Notes under the pieces: generated by a model
Seen by the model: the letters and a program-made list of their open reading frames with translations, nothing else
The model's database searches: none
Told to the model about the DNA's origin: nothing
Position numbers and translations under genes: made by a program
Virus record (IMG/VR): IMGVR_UViG_3300030521_000002
Location: 1-64,000 of that record
Reading direction: 5' to 3' (one strand)
Origin: a virus
DNA length: 64,000 bases
In this document: in pieces, positions 23,884 through 41,929 of the stretch
Position numbering within the stretch: the first letter of the stretch is position 1
Layout: the number at the start of each line of letters is the position of its first letter

Positions 23884-26550
23884 TTAAAGAACTTCTCCTT
23901 CTGACCAATTCTTGGGGTGCCATGTCGCACCGCACGTCAACGGAATTCCAATGCAACCACCAACCGATTCCATGATCTCACGAATCTTCTGGATGATAGG
24001 GAAATTACCTTTGTTGGACTTGGCTGGCATCTCGATTACCAGCTCATCATGTATCTGAGCAATTATATGATATCCATCCAATGTCTGCAAGTAACGATGC
24101 ACCTTATCCATCGCTCGCATGATTACCCAGCACGCTGAAGATTGGATATGGTAGTTCAAAGCCTGTGTAGGAGAAACTCGCCCCCAAGCACCTCGATTAA
24201 GTTGGATAGGATAGCCGCGATCAGGGTCTACTTCCTTATCTGGCATTGTTTCAACATGGCCATTCTTATTCGCTAGGTTAATGTACTTTTGATTAAGTTT
24301 GGTGTGCTCCTTCAAACGGTCTTTAACTAATCTCCATGCGCCTTTTTTATGGGCTGCTCGATCGCAAGTTTCTTCCCCACCTGAATAAGAATAGGCGAAG
24401 CCAAAATTCTTGACATGCCCATAGGTGCTTTTATAGGTTTCTCTGAAAGCACCTTTTTGTTCTGCTAGTGGAAAGAATAACTCTGGGTAAATAATACTCG
24501 CGTTCATCAAGTGGTAACTACCAAAAAATGGTGGCTCATCTGGCTTCTCAAAAATTTCAATCATTACCTGCTCACCACTTTCATAGGCCGGCAGGCGAAG
24601 CTCTAAATTATCGTAATCAATGGATACCCACTCTTTATCTGGCGTGGGTCCAAAACAATAACGAAGATTGAAGTTTTCTTTCTTGCTAATGTTCTGCTCG
24701 TTCGGATTCGAGGAAGACCAGCGAAGGGTTGCCGTGCCAACGCAATTCAAGTTAGGATGAAGCTTATACCAACCTACACTACGTGTTTCCAAGTCTTCCT
24801 GTGTATAATTTGACCGATCGTTGACTGACTGGCCAATCCAAATTTTAGAGCCAGTTTCTCTTGGCTTAGTAACCCCGCTGCATAAATTTGACGAATCTCC
24901 CGAACCTGATCTTCTGTTAGTTTCGCCTTGGCTACTGCTTCTCCCCTGGCTGCCAACATTGGGTTGATTACCAGCGGGTGCTCTGCTCCCCGTCTTATTT
25001 TCTCCGGGTGTGTTCTCGATCCGCTCCGATCCCCTCTGGCCAATCTTTCGGGTTTGAATCGGCTCCAGTGCATCTCCCCTCTCGGCAACCTTTCCGGGTA
25101 AAGTCTCGATCCGTTTCTGTCCCCCGTCGCTTGTCTGTTCTTGGCTACCATATCTGCCGAGTTGTCTTTGTTTGTTCCCAATACTAAGTGATCCGGGTTT
25201 ACACAACTTGGGTTGTCGCAGGTGTGCATTACTATTAGGCCCTCGGGAATGGTCCCCTTGAATAGCAGGTAACTCACACGATGGGCCTTGTTTTGACCCA
25301 CCACGTGAAATTGTCCGTACCCGTTCTTGAATTTCCCCGCTATCCAAATCCAGCATGTTTCCGTCTTCTGAACCTTGGCCAGAAACTTGACTAAAACTTT
25401 CTTCATTGTCTGTGGGGTCATTGGCATGACGAACCTCGATATATTTCCAAAACCGTTTGTAACCATCCATATAAGCGCAGGCTGTATCCATCTGCCTTTT
25501 GCTTCTAAGCGAGTTTATGAAAGCAAGCGGCTTACTTCTTGGCTTGAGGGATGTTTGATAATGTTCAATCGTATCTTTATTGAGAGATGGGGCACCATTC
25601 TCAGTCCTGTTGACCACTTCCAATTTTAATACGTCGAATATGAAGGTTGTCAGGGATTTGTTATTTCCAGATTTAGGCAGCTTAAGATCATAATTATAGC
25701 CCTTGGCTAAGTTTATACAAACTCTTTCAGCTATCCCGCTTCTTTCACGGTAATCCTCGAACAACTCATCTACCCTAGACCCACTGACAGTAATTCCACG
25801 TTCTTCCATCGCATAGGCTACCGGTAATACTTTCAACCGCTCTTGGTAAATCTTCCACAATCCACGCCGTTCTAGTTCTTCTTTTTGCACCTTGAACAAA
25901 GCCAATGTCACAGCACTGTCGGCATTGGCATAGATATTACACACGTCATGCCAAGGATGGTCAGCCTCATACCCATCCTCGATTGCGATGCACCGGGCTA
26001 AATAGGAATCGAATTTCCAAACCTTCTCCTTAGCGCTCGGCATCTCGGGCAAACCCTTCTTAGCGATTCGCCAGCCCTTCTTCTCGGCAATCGCCCTAGC
26101 GGCCTTGGTAGCCTTTTCTAAGGCATCCTCATACGGTTGGATATTGATCCCCAGCCATTCCAAGGCTAGGTCAGTTAAGTTATGGGGAGCATTGGAAGCT
26201 AAAAGATGGGCAGCTAAGAGTGTGTCGAGTACCTTCTCCCAAGGCCAAGCAAAATCCAGCTCATTATCAGCATACAAATGGATGAGCATCCCAGCGTCAA
26301 ATTTCGCGTTGTGCAAAATCAGATGATCCGCCCCGTAGATCAAGTCCCTGATTTCCAATAGCTCTGACTTGGGGGCGATAACTGAGCGATCGTGAGGATT
26401 GAGTTGCCATTCCCAAAAGGTATTTAACCCTGCTTCATTGCAAGTCGTTACCAGAAATGGCCGAGCACCGAAGTAAAGATCAAGGCCGCTCGATTCAGTG
26501 TCTACTGACAGAAGTTTTGGGGTAAGCTTCTTGCTTATTGGTTTCGGCAT
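23884..26550 (-). CDS. polA: Family A DNA polymerase with out-of-frame HNH gene nested inside
   Basis: An 888-codon frame starting MPKPISKK. The 3'-5' exonuclease has DTESSG (D17, E19), LHNAKFDAG (about 80) and a NADSAV third site (about 208). The polymerase has HPNLNCVGTATLRWSSSNPN, motif A SIDYDNLELR (about 643), motif B KSTYGHVKNFGFAYSYSG (about 715) and motif C QIHDELV (about 836). Residues about 371-592 are not polymerase-like: a polar Gln/Gly/Ser/Arg/Glu-rich stretch that is the +1-frame shadow of an HNH endonuclease gene (24774-25427), inserted between KRFWKY and WYKLHPNL. The frame has no stop through the insertion, so translation could yield a polymerase with a roughly 220-residue disordered loop near thumb/palm. 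Confidence 0.88.
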   Translation of the reverse strand: MPKPISKKLTPKLLSVDTESSGLDLYFGARPFLVTTCNEAGLNTFWEWQLNPHDRSVIAPKSELLEIRDLIYGADHLILHNAKFDAGMLIHLYADNELDFAWPWEKVLDTLLAAHLLASNAPHNLTDLALEWLGINIQPYEDALEKATKAARAIAEKKGWRIAKKGLPEMPSAKEKVWKFDSYLARCIAIEDGYEADHPWHDVCNIYANADSAVTLALFKVQKEELERRGLWKIYQERLKVLPVAYAMEERGITVSGSRVDELFEDYRERSGIAERVCINLAKGYNYDLKLPKSGNNKSLTTFIFDVLKLEVVNRTENGAPSLNKDTIEHYQTSLKPRSKPLAFINSLRSKRQMDTACAYMDGYKRFWKYIEVRHANDPTDNEESFSQVSGQGSEDGNMLDLDSGEIQERVRTISRGGSKQGPSCELPAIQGDHSRGPNSNAHLRQPKLCKPGSLSIGNKQRQLGRYGSQEQTSDGGQKRIETLPGKVAERGDALEPIQTRKIGQRGSERIENTPGENKTGSRAPAGNQPNVGSQGRSSSQGETNRRSGSGDSSNLCSGVTKPRETGSKIWIGQSVNDRSNYTQEDLETRSVGWYKLHPNLNCVGTATLRWSSSNPNEQNISKKENFNLRYCFGPTPDKEWVSIDYDNLELRLPAYESGEQVMIEIFEKPDEPPFFGSYHLMNASIIYPELFFPLAEQKGAFRETYKSTYGHVKNFGFAYSYSGGEETCDRAAHKKGAWRLVKDRLKEHTKLNQKYINLANKNGHVETMPDKEVDPDRGYPIQLNRGAWGRVSPTQALNYHIQSSACWVIMRAMDKVHRYLQTLDGYHIIAQIHDELVIEMPAKSNKGNFPIIQKIREIMESVGGCIGIPLTCGATWHPKNWSEGEVL
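24774..25427 (-). CDS. HNH homing endonuclease nested in the polymerase gene
   Basis: A 217-residue protein in the +1 frame relative to the polymerase. Start ATG at 25427 has GAGG 6 nt upstream; it reads MPMTPQTMKK. The HNH core is HTCDNPSCVNPDHLVLGT (about residues 66-83), preceded by WIAGKFKNGYGQF and HRVSYLLFKG, the intron-endonuclease HNH group. Three to four repeats (PERLPRGE, PERLARGD, PEKIRRGA, PMLAARGE) follow, then a helix-turn-helix-like end (LTEDQVREIRQIYAAGL ... GQIIHRKTWKHV). Known relatives sit in group I introns or stand alone; here the gene fills the insertion almost exactly, with no space for an intron core. Confidence 0.88.
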   Translation of the reverse strand: MPMTPQTMKKVLVKFLAKVQKTETCWIWIAGKFKNGYGQFHVVGQNKAHRVSYLLFKGTIPEGLIVMHTCDNPSCVNPDHLVLGTNKDNSADMVAKNRQATGDRNGSRLYPERLPRGEMHWSRFKPERLARGDRSGSRTHPEKIRRGAEHPLVINPMLAARGEAVAKAKLTEDQVREIRQIYAAGLLSQEKLALKFGLASQSTIGQIIHRKTWKHVV

Positions 26551-30142: not shown

Positions 30143-31277
30143 CTTGTAGCTCTGGGAAAAGATTGGTGACTCGTTGAAGGCCAAGTGTACTACCGGTTTC
30201 TAAATGCTCGTCTAATTCTGTTGCACCGCCATCTAGTAAGGCAGAATAGCAACCAAAGGGCATGATGAAATGTTGGTGATTGTTTTCCATCCAAGGGTCT
30301 TGGAAGTTCTGTGAGGCTAGGTACTCATACCAATCACAGAGTTGTTCCAAGATCGGATTTAAGCACCTCTGCTTGAATTTAGCAACATCCCCAGCCGTGA
30401 GGTTTATTTTCCACCTCATAAAAAACCAGTTATCTCGCTTCTCTTTGATGGAGGCTTTGCATTCTTCTCTGATAATCCCATCCAAGCGACCATAGAATTC
30501 TTCGTCTGTCTCCTCTGGCTTCTTAGCAGTGGCTTGGTGCTTACGGATAGTAAACTTACCACCGCTCAAGGGGCGACGAACAGCATTGAATCTAACCCCA
30601 CAAATCGGAACACCATCGCTCTCCTTACTCAATGGCCCGTTCTCTCTAGTATACTCTTCCAACGCCACGGTATAGATGAGCGTTTGCAATTCAAAGTGTA
30701 GCTGACGTTGTATCTGCTGCTTATCAATATCGCCTTTTGACTTATTTTCCTGTAAAAATATCCCAACATTCTTACCCTTGCCAATCAGGTCTACGCTGTC
30801 CCACTTACCTCTCAAATAGACAGTCCGCCCCGACGGTAATTTATAAGGAACTTTGAAGACCTTCTCTTGGAAGATTGGTGTTCGATCCTTAACATCCGGG
30901 TGCTTAGACCAAAAGTCCATGTAATGTGGGAACTGGGTACGACAGATGTTGTACCAATGGTTAATTTGATCTGCTGCTAATTTGTACTGATCGAACAACC
31001 CTTGGCAGTAAATCTTTAATCTACCTTGCCACTTGTTACTTGCCCTAGCCCCAACGGCAACTTCCTCAGCATGGCTCTCTTCACAAATATGCCACATTTG
31101 CCCGTAAAAAATTCTGTGGTTCCAGCCATCGGCTTGCTTAAGGCCCTCAATAGTCTGTATTCTGAATCTTTCCCTGCAAACTAAAAATTTTGAGAGCAAG
31201 CTGAACGTAATGCCATCAACTTCTGGGCCTTGCCACACTGGTCTTTTAGCCGCATTTCTTATGACTGGTTTCGGCAT
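30135..31277 (-). CDS. PD-(D/E)XK (RecB/Cas4-like) nuclease
   Basis: A 380-residue protein starting MPKPVIRN. The catalytic core is RGKWDSVDLIG (Asp about 165) followed by FLQENKSKGD (E-x-K about 178-180) and QQIQRQLHFELQTLIYTVAL, the QxxxY-like helix of RecB-type nucleases. Probably processes DNA ends with the Sak4-like ATPase next in the operon. Its first 32 nt overlap the upstream GIY-YIG endonuclease gene. Confidence 0.8.
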   Translation of the reverse strand: MPKPVIRNAAKRPVWQGPEVDGITFSLLSKFLVCRERFRIQTIEGLKQADGWNHRIFYGQMWHICEESHAEEVAVGARASNKWQGRLKIYCQGLFDQYKLAADQINHWYNICRTQFPHYMDFWSKHPDVKDRTPIFQEKVFKVPYKLPSGRTVYLRGKWDSVDLIGKGKNVGIFLQENKSKGDIDKQQIQRQLHFELQTLIYTVALEEYTRENGPLSKESDGVPICGVRFNAVRRPLSGGKFTIRKHQATAKKPEETDEEFYGRLDGIIREECKASIKEKRDNWFFMRWKINLTAGDVAKFKQRCLNPILEQLCDWYEYLASQNFQDPWMENNHQHFIMPFGCYSALLDGGATELDEHLETGSTLGLQRVTNLFPELQDA

Positions 31278-31992
31278 TTTGTCTCCTCCTTTTCCATGAT
31301 TCTTTCCTTGCTTCCGCTATCTTCGCTTTACATCCAGGTGTATTTAGTGCCTTTTTGATGGCTGCCTTATGGGAGTCAGACAATCTTTTGTCTTCTCTTG
31401 CATCCCATTGCGCCTTGACTATCAGGGATATTTTCTTTTTAGTTTCTTCGCTACGCTTTCTGCCCTTATTTTTCATCGAGATACTTTTACACACAGCCAA
31501 AGACCGTTTCTTACCGACGGAAGCTTTTGGACCCATCCTCAACGCTTCTAATTGCTTTTCGGTTAGATTGCCTTTTCTCTGTTTAGACCAAAGCAATTTG
31601 GTTTCTTCTGTGGGCCTATACCAAGCTCTCCCTTTCTTCGATTTAGCAATATGTTCCTCAGATAGTTTTACTCCTAAACAACTACCAGCGGTTGGGCATT
31701 TATTATAGCCAGTATCTTGTTCAGCGGCTCTTAGTTTATCCATCCAAACCTGTTCTCTTGGAACACACATTTTCTTTTGGCAAGTTTCCAAAACAATAAA
31801 TTCAAAGGCTTCTTCACCATACTTTAACCAAGCCCTCTGCAAGTGTTTATTGTGATGTAAATCCCTCCTTAACAGACATTTGTGTATGTACCACCTCTTT
31901 TTGATAGAAACAGCAGCACTTCCTACATAGACTTTGAGCGAGATTTTATGCCGTATTGCATACACTCCTGTCTTGTAAATAGGTTTGGGCAT
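31246..31992 (-). CDS. Free-standing GIY-YIG homing endonuclease
   Basis: A 248-residue protein starting MPKPIYKTGVYAI. The GIY-like strand (TGVYAIRHK) and YVG strand (KVYVGSAAVSIKKRW) are followed by RDLHHNKHLQRAWLKYGEEA, the catalytic helix region, then NUMOD3-like repeats (KLSEEHIAKSKKG, RKRSEETKKKIS, RLSDSHKAAIKKA) that bind DNA. It is inserted between a small gene and the nuclease gene, whose start codon it overlaps. Known members promote their own spread by cutting allelic sites. Confidence 0.88.
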   Translation of the reverse strand: MPKPIYKTGVYAIRHKISLKVYVGSAAVSIKKRWYIHKCLLRRDLHHNKHLQRAWLKYGEEAFEFIVLETCQKKMCVPREQVWMDKLRAAEQDTGYNKCPTAGSCLGVKLSEEHIAKSKKGRAWYRPTEETKLLWSKQRKGNLTEKQLEALRMGPKASVGKKRSLAVCKSISMKNKGRKRSEETKKKISLIVKAQWDAREDKRLSDSHKAAIKKALNTPGCKAKIAEARKESWKRRRQNAETSHKKCG

Positions 31993-38990: not shown

Positions 38991-39178
38991 AACCCACCGA
39001 GCTAGCCACCTACCTTGCCCTCAGTCACCAACAAGTCAGAGCCTTGTTGCGCAAGGGCAAGATCAAGTCTACCAAGAAGCAGACATTCACCCGCGAAGGA
39101 CGGGAGTTTGGATTTGAGTACGAGATTACCCCCGACGAAGCCCAACGTATCCAACAGGAGAGAACCAATGCCAAGTAA
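38987..39178 (+). CDS. Helix-turn-helix protein (excisionase/MerR-like)
   Basis: A 63-residue protein. KPTELATYLALSHQQVRALL followed by KGKIKSTKKQTF resembles the winged helix-turn-helix of MerR/excisionase proteins. It overlaps both neighbours. Likely a small DNA-binding regulator of this rightward block. Confidence 0.6.
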   Translation: MKPTELATYLALSHQQVRALLRKGKIKSTKKQTFTREGREFGFEYEITPDEAQRIQQERTNAK

Positions 39179-40310
39179 GAAGACCAAAGCGATTCCCCCG
39201 TCCAAGTTGGCCGACAAACTAGCCAAGCACAAGTCAGAGTTGGATGATGCCCCCCACCTGATCGTCCAAGCGCTCGCAGGAACCGGAAAAAGTACCACAA
39301 TTATCGAGGGCATCAAACTACTGTTTGATATGCCCCCCTCGATCATACCGAGCCCACAACAGCAAGAAATTTGGGATTCGATCCTCTTGAGCAAGGGGAA
39401 AGCTAAGTCTGTGTGCTTTTGCGCCTTCAACAAGAGCATTGCAACAGAACTTCAGCAACGTGTTCCTCCCGGTTGTATCGCCCAGACCATGCACTCGATG
39501 GGATTCAAGGCGGTTCAAGCGGCCTTTGGTAAGGTCCAAGTCAATCAGTACCGAGTACAAGACATTATCAGCGAACTACTCGGCAAGGATATTCGGGATT
39601 TGCGCAAAGACAAGTTCACGATGATTAAAGCTGTGGAAGAATTGGTAGGGTTGTGCAAGCAGACTTTGACAGGCTTTGAGCGACCTAAAACCGGAATCGA
39701 GCGATTGGATTATGCCAATTACAACTGTCAAATCGTATGGCCGGAAACTCTTGCTAACTTGGCAGATTACTACGACGTGGATTGCAACGGTTCTAGTGCT
39801 GAAATCTTCGACCTAGTTCCCCAGGTCTTGGAACGCTGCAAGGACGTTGCCAAGGATCGTTGTATCGACTTTGCTGATATGGTGTGGCTCCCGGTTGTTC
39901 TTAATCTTTCGGTGCAACAATACGACTTACTACTGGTGGATGAGGTTCAGGATTTAGCTAAAGTACAACAACAACTCGCTCTCAAGGCCGGTAAACGCTT
40001 GATACTTGTAGGCGACAGTCGGCAAGCTATTTATGGTTGGGTTGGCGCTGACTCTGGCAGTATGGAGCGAATGTACGATATTTTGTTAGACTACTGTCGT
40101 GCTTGTGATGGGGCTGGAACTATTCTTGGGGCAGTTTGTGAGCAATGTGCCGGTAAAGGAAGTGAAGGGAGGGGTTGTCGAGTTCTACCCTTGACTGTCA
40201 CTCGCCGTTGTGGGAGAGCCATTGTTGAGGAAGCTAAGAAGATTGTTCCGAATTTTGAATGGCATCCGAATAACGGGGAAGGAAAAGTCAGCTATGCACG
40301 GATGAACTAA
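39168..40310 (+). CDS. UvrD/Rep-like helicase, first exon
   Basis: The first 380 codons of a superfamily 1 helicase, starting MPSKKTKAIPPSK (ATG at 39168 after CAGGAG). Walker A ALAGTGKST lies about residues 37-45, DEVQDL about 258 and VGDSRQAIYGW about 282. A DnaJ-type zinc insert (CRACDGAG, CEQCAGKG) lies about 313-330, unusual for UvrD. The frame stops at TAA 40308-40310 after SYARMN, inside an intervening sequence. The C-terminal helicase motifs continue at 41374-41929, so a complete protein requires splicing. Confidence 0.85.
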   Translation: MPSKKTKAIPPSKLADKLAKHKSELDDAPHLIVQALAGTGKSTTIIEGIKLLFDMPPSIIPSPQQQEIWDSILLSKGKAKSVCFCAFNKSIATELQQRVPPGCIAQTMHSMGFKAVQAAFGKVQVNQYRVQDIISELLGKDIRDLRKDKFTMIKAVEELVGLCKQTLTGFERPKTGIERLDYANYNCQIVWPETLANLADYYDVDCNGSSAEIFDLVPQVLERCKDVAKDRCIDFADMVWLPVVLNLSVQQYDLLLVDEVQDLAKVQQQLALKAGKRLILVGDSRQAIYGWVGADSGSMERMYDILLDYCRACDGAGTILGAVCEQCAGKGSEGRGCRVLPLTVTRRCGRAIVEEAKKIVPNFEWHPNNGEGKVSYARMN

Positions 40311-40414
40311 CAAGATACAATTAGATGTAAGGCTAGACCGGCCAGTCGAAGAGTCAGCACCACACTGACCTGCCTTATATCTAATTTTGTGGGGTTACTG
40401 GTGGAGTAACTTCT

Positions 40415-40864
40415 ATGCCTTCTCCCAAGGGTTGGAAATCTGGCGTTTATTGTATTCTTAATACGATTAACGGAAAAAGATACATTGGCAGTGCTGCTAG
40501 GTGTTTCAAAGGGCGATTAGCGGATCATAAGCTTAGGCTTAAAAGTAAAACACATGCTAATCGGTACCTACAAAACGCTTGGAATAAGTACGGCGAGAAG
40601 GCATTTCAATTTATGGTTATTACCGGATGTTGTCCCAGCCTTTGCATAGAGATTGAGCAGCAATACATAGACTTGTACAACTCATCCAACTCTAAGTTTG
40701 GCTACAACATCTGCCCAAGAGCCGGCAGTAGATTGGGCACCAAATTATCACCAGAGGTTTGTGCCAAATTTTCCATAATCTCCAAGGAGAAAATGAACCG
40801 CCCAGAAGTCAGAGCTAAATTATCCGCTGGGACAATAAGGGGCGATGAAGAACCCAGAACTTAG
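40415..40864 (+). CDS. GIY-YIG homing endonuclease, N-terminal part (frameshifted)
   Basis: 149 codons: SGVYCILNTINGKRYIGSA (GIY-like and YIG strands), RLADHKLRLKSKTHANRY, LQNAWNKYGEKAFQF, then the start of NUMOD3-type repeats (KLSPEVCAKFS, RPEVRAKLSAG). The frame then runs off at GDEEPRT; the continuation is in the next frame at 40845-41372. The break coincides with a GGGG run (40839-40842). Broken gene, programmed frameshift or sequencing error are all possible. Confidence 0.75.
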   Translation: MPSPKGWKSGVYCILNTINGKRYIGSAARCFKGRLADHKLRLKSKTHANRYLQNAWNKYGEKAFQFMVITGCCPSLCIEIEQQYIDLYNSSNSKFGYNICPRAGSRLGTKLSPEVCAKFSIISKEKMNRPEVRAKLSAGTIRGDEEPRT

Positions 40865-41372
40865 AGCTATTCTCTCAACAAAGGCCAAGAAAAGATTCCA
40901 AGACCCGGAAGCTAGAAGGAAGGCATCTAGAAAAGCAAAAGAAGTTCAGAACAAACCCGAAGTAAGGGCTAAACGGCTAGCAACTTTGAGTTTACCTGAA
41001 TACCAAGAAAAAGTTTCTAGGCTCCAAAAAGATTCTTGGAAAAACAAGTCAACGAGAGATAAAAGAATAGCGGGAATGAAGAAAGCTGTTTTAGCACCAG
41101 GATTCAAAACGAAACTTTCTATTGCATTGAAACAAGGCTGGAGAAAATGTCTTATTAGACAAGGGATTATTTTGAAGAGCCGAATCGGAGAAAGGGAGTT
41201 TACTGTTAGTGAGGTGGTAGAAGTCATGCAATACCAAAGTAGGTTTGGAGCCAGAACTCTTATTTGGAAGTTGGTCAGTTTGGGATTAGCAACATGCTTA
41301 GTGCAGCCCGTAACCAAGCATGTTGTTGGAATTTTCGGGTGGAATGAGGAAAACGAACTATGGAAAATTTAG
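40845..41372 (+). CDS. GIY-YIG homing endonuclease, C-terminal part
   Basis: 175 codons in the frame one base off the N-terminal part. It continues the repeats (NPELRAILSTKAKKRF, NKPEVRAKRLATLS, KKSTRDKR-like) and ends with a helix-turn-helix-like region (FTVSEVVEVMQYQSRFGART). An ATG at 40845 could restart translation. It ends just at the second helicase exon. Confidence 0.65.
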   Translation: MKNPELRAILSTKAKKRFQDPEARRKASRKAKEVQNKPEVRAKRLATLSLPEYQEKVSRLQKDSWKNKSTRDKRIAGMKKAVLAPGFKTKLSIALKQGWRKCLIRQGIILKSRIGEREFTVSEVVEVMQYQSRFGARTLIWKLVSLGLATCLVQPVTKHVVGIFGWNEENELWKI

Positions 41373-41929
41373 GCTGCTACAGAGAGTTAGTTAAGGATGG
41401 GGATTTAGTGCTGTGCAGAATTAACGCACCGCTAGTTTCCGAGTGTTTCAAACTATTGAAATCTGGTAGGAAAGCTTCGATCCAGGGTCGTGACATTGGC
41501 CAGGGGCTTATCAAGACCATCGAGAAGATGAAAGCTAGTTCCATCGTTGACATGGTTGCCAAGCTCGATGATTGGCTACGTGCTGAGACGCTCAAGGAAC
41601 AGGCCAAGCGTAACCCCCGAGAACAGAAGACCATCAACCTAGGTGACAGGCATGATTGTCTTTGTACGTTTTGTGAGGATGCTCAGAGCGTACAAGATGT
41701 GGTTGACAAGATTACCCGGATATTCTCTGACACCACGAGCGGCGGGATTCTCCTAAGTTCCATACATCGCGCAAAAGGGAAAGAGGCATCTCGTGTTTTC
41801 CTCTTGCAACCCAAGGGGGCAGAAGTAAATCACCCCATGACAAAGACTGCTCAAGGCAAGGCCGAGAACCAAAATCTAATGTATGTGGCAATTACCAGAA
41901 GTATCCAAGAACTTATTTTTGTGAGCTAA
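41360..41929 (+). CDS. UvrD/Rep-like helicase, second exon
   Basis: The C-terminal half of the helicase, about 185 codons from about 41374: KDGDLVLCRINAPLVSECF, GRDIGQGL, a Cys pair CLCTFC, and the motif V/VI region ILLSSIHRAKGKEA ... NLMYVAITRSIQELIFV. Without splicing it would lack the Walker motifs. The coding frame differs from exon 1, as expected if an intervening sequence must be removed. Confidence 0.82.
   Translation: MENLGCYRELVKDGDLVLCRINAPLVSECFKLLKSGRKASIQGRDIGQGLIKTIEKMKASSIVDMVAKLDDWLRAETLKEQAKRNPREQKTINLGDRHDCLCTFCEDAQSVQDVVDKITRIFSDTTSGGILLSSIHRAKGKEASRVFLLQPKGAEVNHPMTKTAQGKAENQNLMYVAITRSIQELIFVS

Follow-up and report, generated by a model that had tools for sequence, protein, structure and literature searches.

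The received view is that a homing endonuclease depends on an intron, an intein or an intergenic site if the host gene is to be spared. I-HmuI from SPO1 is an HNH endonuclease borne by a group I intron in a phage DNA polymerase gene. I-PfoP3I is reportedly another (PMC3428280). Free-standing HNH and GIY-YIG endonuclease genes are also known to split the genes that they enter, as mobE does nrdA in Aeh1 and mobA gene 60 in T4, and in Aeromonas phage 25 seg43 is inserted in the polymerase gene (PMC2988022). A different arrangement has been described in mycobacteriophage methylases, where HNH insertions lie out of frame with their host, as the ShiLan domain and in Pacc40 gp60 (Arsenault, Gosselin and Gogarten 2025; PMC11855218). 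A further methylase case is reported for phage Applejack (PMC12613952).

The locus considered here is in a window of 64,000 nt, the whole stretch of DNA that was analysed, which is part of an IMG/VR virus record of 75,293 bases. Its host gene, of 888 codons, is apparently the phage's sole DNA polymerase gene; no further DNA polymerase (family A, family B or Pol III alpha) was found in the 75-kb record. The parts of the locus are:

23884–26550, minus strand: family A DNA polymerase gene (3′-5′ exonuclease and polymerase), 888 codons, frame open across the insert
25447–26550, minus strand: N-terminal part of the polymerase, exonuclease and thumb, aa 1–368, conserved and intact
25434–25437, minus strand: Shine-Dalgarno-like GAGG, 6 nt before the ATG of the HNH gene and located in polymerase sequence that flanks the insert, as read from the sequence
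24774–25427, minus strand: nested HNH_3 homing-type endonuclease gene, 217 aa plus TAG, +1 frame relative to the polymerase
24772–25446, minus strand: enlarged loop between thumb and palm as read in the polymerase frame, with 225 residues separating KRFW from WY, predicted disordered
23884–24771, minus strand: C-terminal part of the polymerase, palm and fingers, aa 594–888, conserved and retaining the family A active-site motifs

A sequence-only reading of this DNA had placed a complete HNH gene, with its own GAGG and ATG, in the +1 frame inside a family A polymerase, at a junction between KRFWKY and WYKLHPNL. Its coordinates are exact (on the minus strand the ATG is at 25427 and the TAG ends at 24774), and the junction matches KRFW (aa 365–368) on one side and WYKLHP (aa 594 onward) on the other. 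The polymerase frame is, as was also claimed, without a stop, running open from 26550 to 23884 for 888 aa. Its Pfam matches are DNA_pol_A (E = 6.7e-29) and DNA_pol_A_exo1 (E = 5.6e-6), and the 217-aa ORF matches HNH_3 (E = 6.6e-14). One stretch of DNA thus appears, from its open frames, to encode two proteins.

The alignment with uninterrupted polymerases that had been proposed as a check was made with 17, and then 42, homologues taken from viral contigs plus a single archaeal metagenome bin, 38–53% identical. The spacing from KRFW to WYxLHP is 3–40 residues (median 8) in the 42 homologues versus 225 here, and in place of the conserved domain that was looked for at this point they have just the short loop. 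Since homologues hold 3–40 residues there, the insertion site is, on this alignment, a loop between thumb and palm whose length is naturally variable. It is one which, from the alignment, we take to be equivalent to the INPKTG loop that precedes the palm strand in E. coli Pol I (residues about 648–653). Unlike typical homing sites it is without strong conservation. The insert is missing in every homologue whose junction was examined, and no HNH gene was found at the polymerase junction in relatives among viral and genome contigs. One carrier was found, and the best matching segments of its polymerase homologues are at most 59% identical.

Three related loci have features of their own. A related polymerase, L108 (207–446), carries 72 inserted aa in the corresponding loop and, in the same relative frame, a 79-aa nested ORF with a hydrophobic N-terminus, for which the open-frame P is 0.02 and no relatives were found; it is possibly a second overprinted gene. 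The homologous polymerase gene of one related phage shares its opening codons with an HNH endonuclease gene (L069:3397–4008). Another relative of the polymerase, at L070:3976–6224 (on one contig with L290), falls into two overlapping frames around model position 510–550, owing to a frameshift or an assembly error.

The openness of the polymerase frame was assessed with the HNH protein held fixed and its synonymous codons alone allowed to vary. With genome codon usage, taken from 14 other genes of this genome and assumed in the codon tests to be like that of the HNH gene, 16.1 polymerase-frame stops are expected and none is seen (exact P = 1.4e-9). The probability of finding no stop becomes 1.9e-7 if codons are uniform, and 3.6e-5 on the HNH gene's own, already depleted, codon usage. 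When the gene's own synonymous codons are permuted, 0 of 20,000 permutations are open and the mean number of stops is 8.1. The first estimate from uniform codons, about 4e-5, was right in holding the openness to be non-random; it understated the signal. Stop triplets are not scarce in the HNH gene at large, since its third sense frame has 18 of them and its antisense frames have 7–11. Other genes of the genome show no comparable stop avoidance in that frame. Among HNH relatives, all 26 of those first found carry one or more stops in the corresponding frame, and 4 of 127 distinct relatives of at least 100 codons, this one included, have an open second sense frame; in the other three, GC is 59–65% versus 49% for the insert here. 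Stop avoidance holds in every version of the test, and the open polymerase frame is not due to chance.

Candidates for a second nested case were rejected. L158 alone passed the scan of HNH relatives, and its 'host' frame resembles an ORF of the kind that arises by chance at high GC, with no recognised gene in it. In L143 and L189 a second frame is open, but both are about 60% GC and lack a flanking host frame.

Each polymerase-frame codon consists of the third base of one HNH codon and the first two bases of the next, and the use of T at HNH third positions can be sorted by what it yields in the polymerase frame. Where T would give a stop it ends 0 of 48 HNH codons, versus 649/1712 (38%) in the genome (P = 2e-10), which bears out the earlier proposal of selection to keep the host frame open. 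Where it would give Cys, Phe, Trp or Tyr the counts are 7/68 versus 1048/2795 (37%; P = 7.5e-7), and where Ser or Leu would result they are 21/50 versus 517/1493 (35%; P = 0.29). HNH third positions are T-poorer as a whole (28/218 versus 29% in the genome). Because T is at the genome rate where it gives Ser or Leu, it is not simply rare, but is shunned where it would harm the polymerase-frame protein. Within the HNH gene the contrast between the Cys/Phe/Trp/Tyr and Ser/Leu classes has P = 1.3e-4 (Fisher). The polymerase frame has 7 Cys, Phe, Trp and Tyr residues versus 22 expected by simulation with genome codon usage (z = −4.1); with the HNH gene's own codon usage the depletion is not significant (P = 0.17). 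This depletion is supportive, not conclusive, and its basis is the within-gene Fisher contrast. The GRAVY value of the polymerase-frame peptide is ordinary compared with stop-free synonymous shuffles: the peptide-level signal sits in aromatic and Cys residues, not in GRAVY.

Judged by conservation and modelling, both proteins look functional. Of polymerase residues conserved in at least 80% of homologues, 73/84 are kept before the insert and 99/119 after it, fractions within the range of uninterrupted polymerase homologues. In the AlphaFold2 model the polymerase is intact and the insert forms a disordered loop: both polymerase parts are mostly at pLDDT >90 and residues 380–582 are at about 30, in agreement with the polar disordered loop first envisaged, and the best PDB matches of the model are phage and bacterial Pol I structures. 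The HNH protein retains every residue that is invariant among its relatives. Its HNH part is predicted at pLDDT >90 with a beta-beta-alpha-metal core, and I-PpoI and I-HmuI are among the best, weak fold matches of the model (E 0.01–0.06). It has the features of an HNH homing endonuclease, an HNH/beta-beta-alpha-metal core and a DNA-binding tail.

The reading that we consider probable is of a read-through polymerase carrying a disordered loop of about 217 aa, with the nuclease started internally and no splicing vehicle. A homing-type HNH gene would have settled, without such a vehicle, in a polymerase loop tolerant of length variation. Translation straight through the polymerase frame would yield an 888-aa enzyme with a polar, predicted disordered loop of about 217 residues between thumb and palm, and ribosomes starting inside the polymerase mRNA at GAGG-N6-ATG, in the +1 frame, would make the nuclease, to judge from the bases there. 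Like other HNH homing endonucleases, it would presumably nick or cut insert-free polymerase alleles and then be copied into them by recombination. Since nothing would be spliced out, selection would act on the synonymous positions of the nuclease, and the need for a working polymerase would purge those codons that make polymerase-frame stops or sticky residues. Mobility and homing we infer from the HNH family and a patchy occurrence, for one metagenomic genome. A loop of 217 disordered residues might be costly, impairing the polymerase. Beyond the read-through itself, we lean towards splicing-independent homing by dual coding, in which a mobile nuclease persists long-term in an essential replicative polymerase because the pair use one stretch of DNA in different frames, and selection has reshaped the nuclease's synonymous sites into those of a soluble disordered linker of the host protein. 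If true, introns and inteins would be joined by a third means of rendering an insertion harmless.

Splicing, bypassing and re-initiation are disfavoured because none of them would require stop avoidance. An HNH gene within a phage DNA polymerase gene is classically part of an intron, as with I-PfoP3I in Pf-WMP3 (PMC3428280), and a degenerate or unfamiliar self-splicing intron might remove the insert, with the HNH protein as its endonuclease. We think this very unlikely: apart from a few codons the insert is all HNH ORF, leaving no room for a group I core, as had been pointed out, and the proposed covariance-model search (Rfam, run on the whole window and, with E ≤ 10 allowed, on the insert) gave no group I or II match. 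Splicing would, moreover, be no reason for the host frame to avoid stops and aromatic residues. The sequence-only reading had also seen no intein motifs in the insert, and Pfam agrees, with polymerase and exonuclease as the only matches of the 888-aa frame and no Hint splicing domain at E ≤ 1; the insert is disordered in the model. The polymerase might instead work in two pieces, either by protease cutting of the loop after read-through or by re-initiation of the C-terminal half after the HNH stop. Split T4-type enzymes that arose by homing-endonuclease insertion are functional, NrdA of phage Aeh1 and gp43A/B of Aeromonas phage 25 being the models (PMC2988022), and a long disordered loop would be prone to proteolysis. 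The re-initiation variant would leave the open frame unneeded, and no good start or Shine-Dalgarno is to be read at the C-terminal part, while post-translational nicking of the loop is compatible with read-through; a polymerase in two pieces is, taken overall, unlikely.

The view that a foreign gene's base composition left the frame open by accident gains something from the T-poor third positions of the HNH gene and from the chance open second frames of GC-rich HNH genes. It is nevertheless scarcely credible given the absence of any open frame among the own-codon permutations, the 18 stops in the other sense frame, an insert GC of only 49%, and T at the genome rate where Ser or Leu results. 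Nuclease activity is here predicted from sequence, so the HNH gene might alternatively be a dead relic in a domesticated loop, with the polymerase frame alone now selected. Constraint on that single frame would have eroded the HNH gene, whereas its frame is stop-free over 217 codons with all core residues intact, and we regard a relic as highly improbable. An assembly chimera we reject, for a random join would not yield a 217-codon stop-avoiding overlap.

Other parts of the window also have genes of homing type. A GIY-YIG homing endonuclease gene (31246–31992, minus strand) has MPKPI as its first residues, and at its 3′ end it shares bases with the beginning of an exonuclease-like gene, which reads MPKPV, at 31277. 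An N-terminal tag of this form, M-P-K-P-[IV], is shared by many genes, with differing codons. The peptide starts are:

26550, 26669, 31277, 31992, 32998, 33946 and 14130, minus strand: M-P-K-P-[IV] starts
41933 and 42574, plus strand: M-P-K-P-[IV] starts

A helicase gene (39015–41929, plus strand) is in two parts, 39015–40310 and 41360–41929, interrupted by seemingly frameshifted GIY-YIG ORFs (40415–41372). There is an int-alpA RNA match at 40326–40393 (39 bits, cut-off 35.8). Unlike the polymerase host frame, that of the interrupted helicase does stop.

The group I intron cases share with the present one a nuclease in a phage DNA polymerase gene; here there is no ribozyme core, and no room for one. 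The gene-splitting insertions likewise place an intron-less homing endonuclease inside an essential phage gene, DNA polymerase included, but there the host becomes separate polypeptides whereas here its frame runs through. The ShiLan case is closer. In both it and the polymerase case an out-of-frame HNH ORF fills the insert, the host frame is without stops, no intron or intein was found, and the host-frame product is predicted to be disordered or looped. The ShiLan host is a methylase, termed non-essential by its authors (PMC11855218), and here it is the replicative polymerase. The ShiLan HNH has the opposite phase (frame 3 rather than 2), zinc fingers, a GTG start and no detectable RBS, whereas the polymerase-nested HNH has a plausible Shine-Dalgarno and an ATG, and different accessory domains. 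The two HNH proteins have no end-to-end similarity, just short local matches outside the HNH core, and by this comparison the polymerase-nested HNH lies outside the ShiLan lineage, with the arrangement alone being of ShiLan type. Put through the identical openness test, the ShiLan and Pacc40 sequences have 2.5 (P = 0.044) and 0.5 (P = 0.57) expected host-frame stops, compared with P = 1.4e-9 here, and their open frames may come from chance in GC-rich genomes.

The arrangement is therefore already known in kind, and the earlier belief that no intron-less, intein-less dual-frame case had been described does not survive the precedent of ShiLan-domain HNH genes in phage DNA methylases (PMC11855218). 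What is new, relative to the open-licence PMC literature, is a replicative polymerase as host, the phase, the HNH lineage, a Shine-Dalgarno of its own and a measurable two-frame constraint. The locus provides quantitative evidence, at the levels of stops and of amino acids, for selection on a host frame across an out-of-frame nuclease. It turns the ShiLan proposal into a testable class of element, with a simple screen for more cases: nuclease ORFs whose second sense frame avoids stops.
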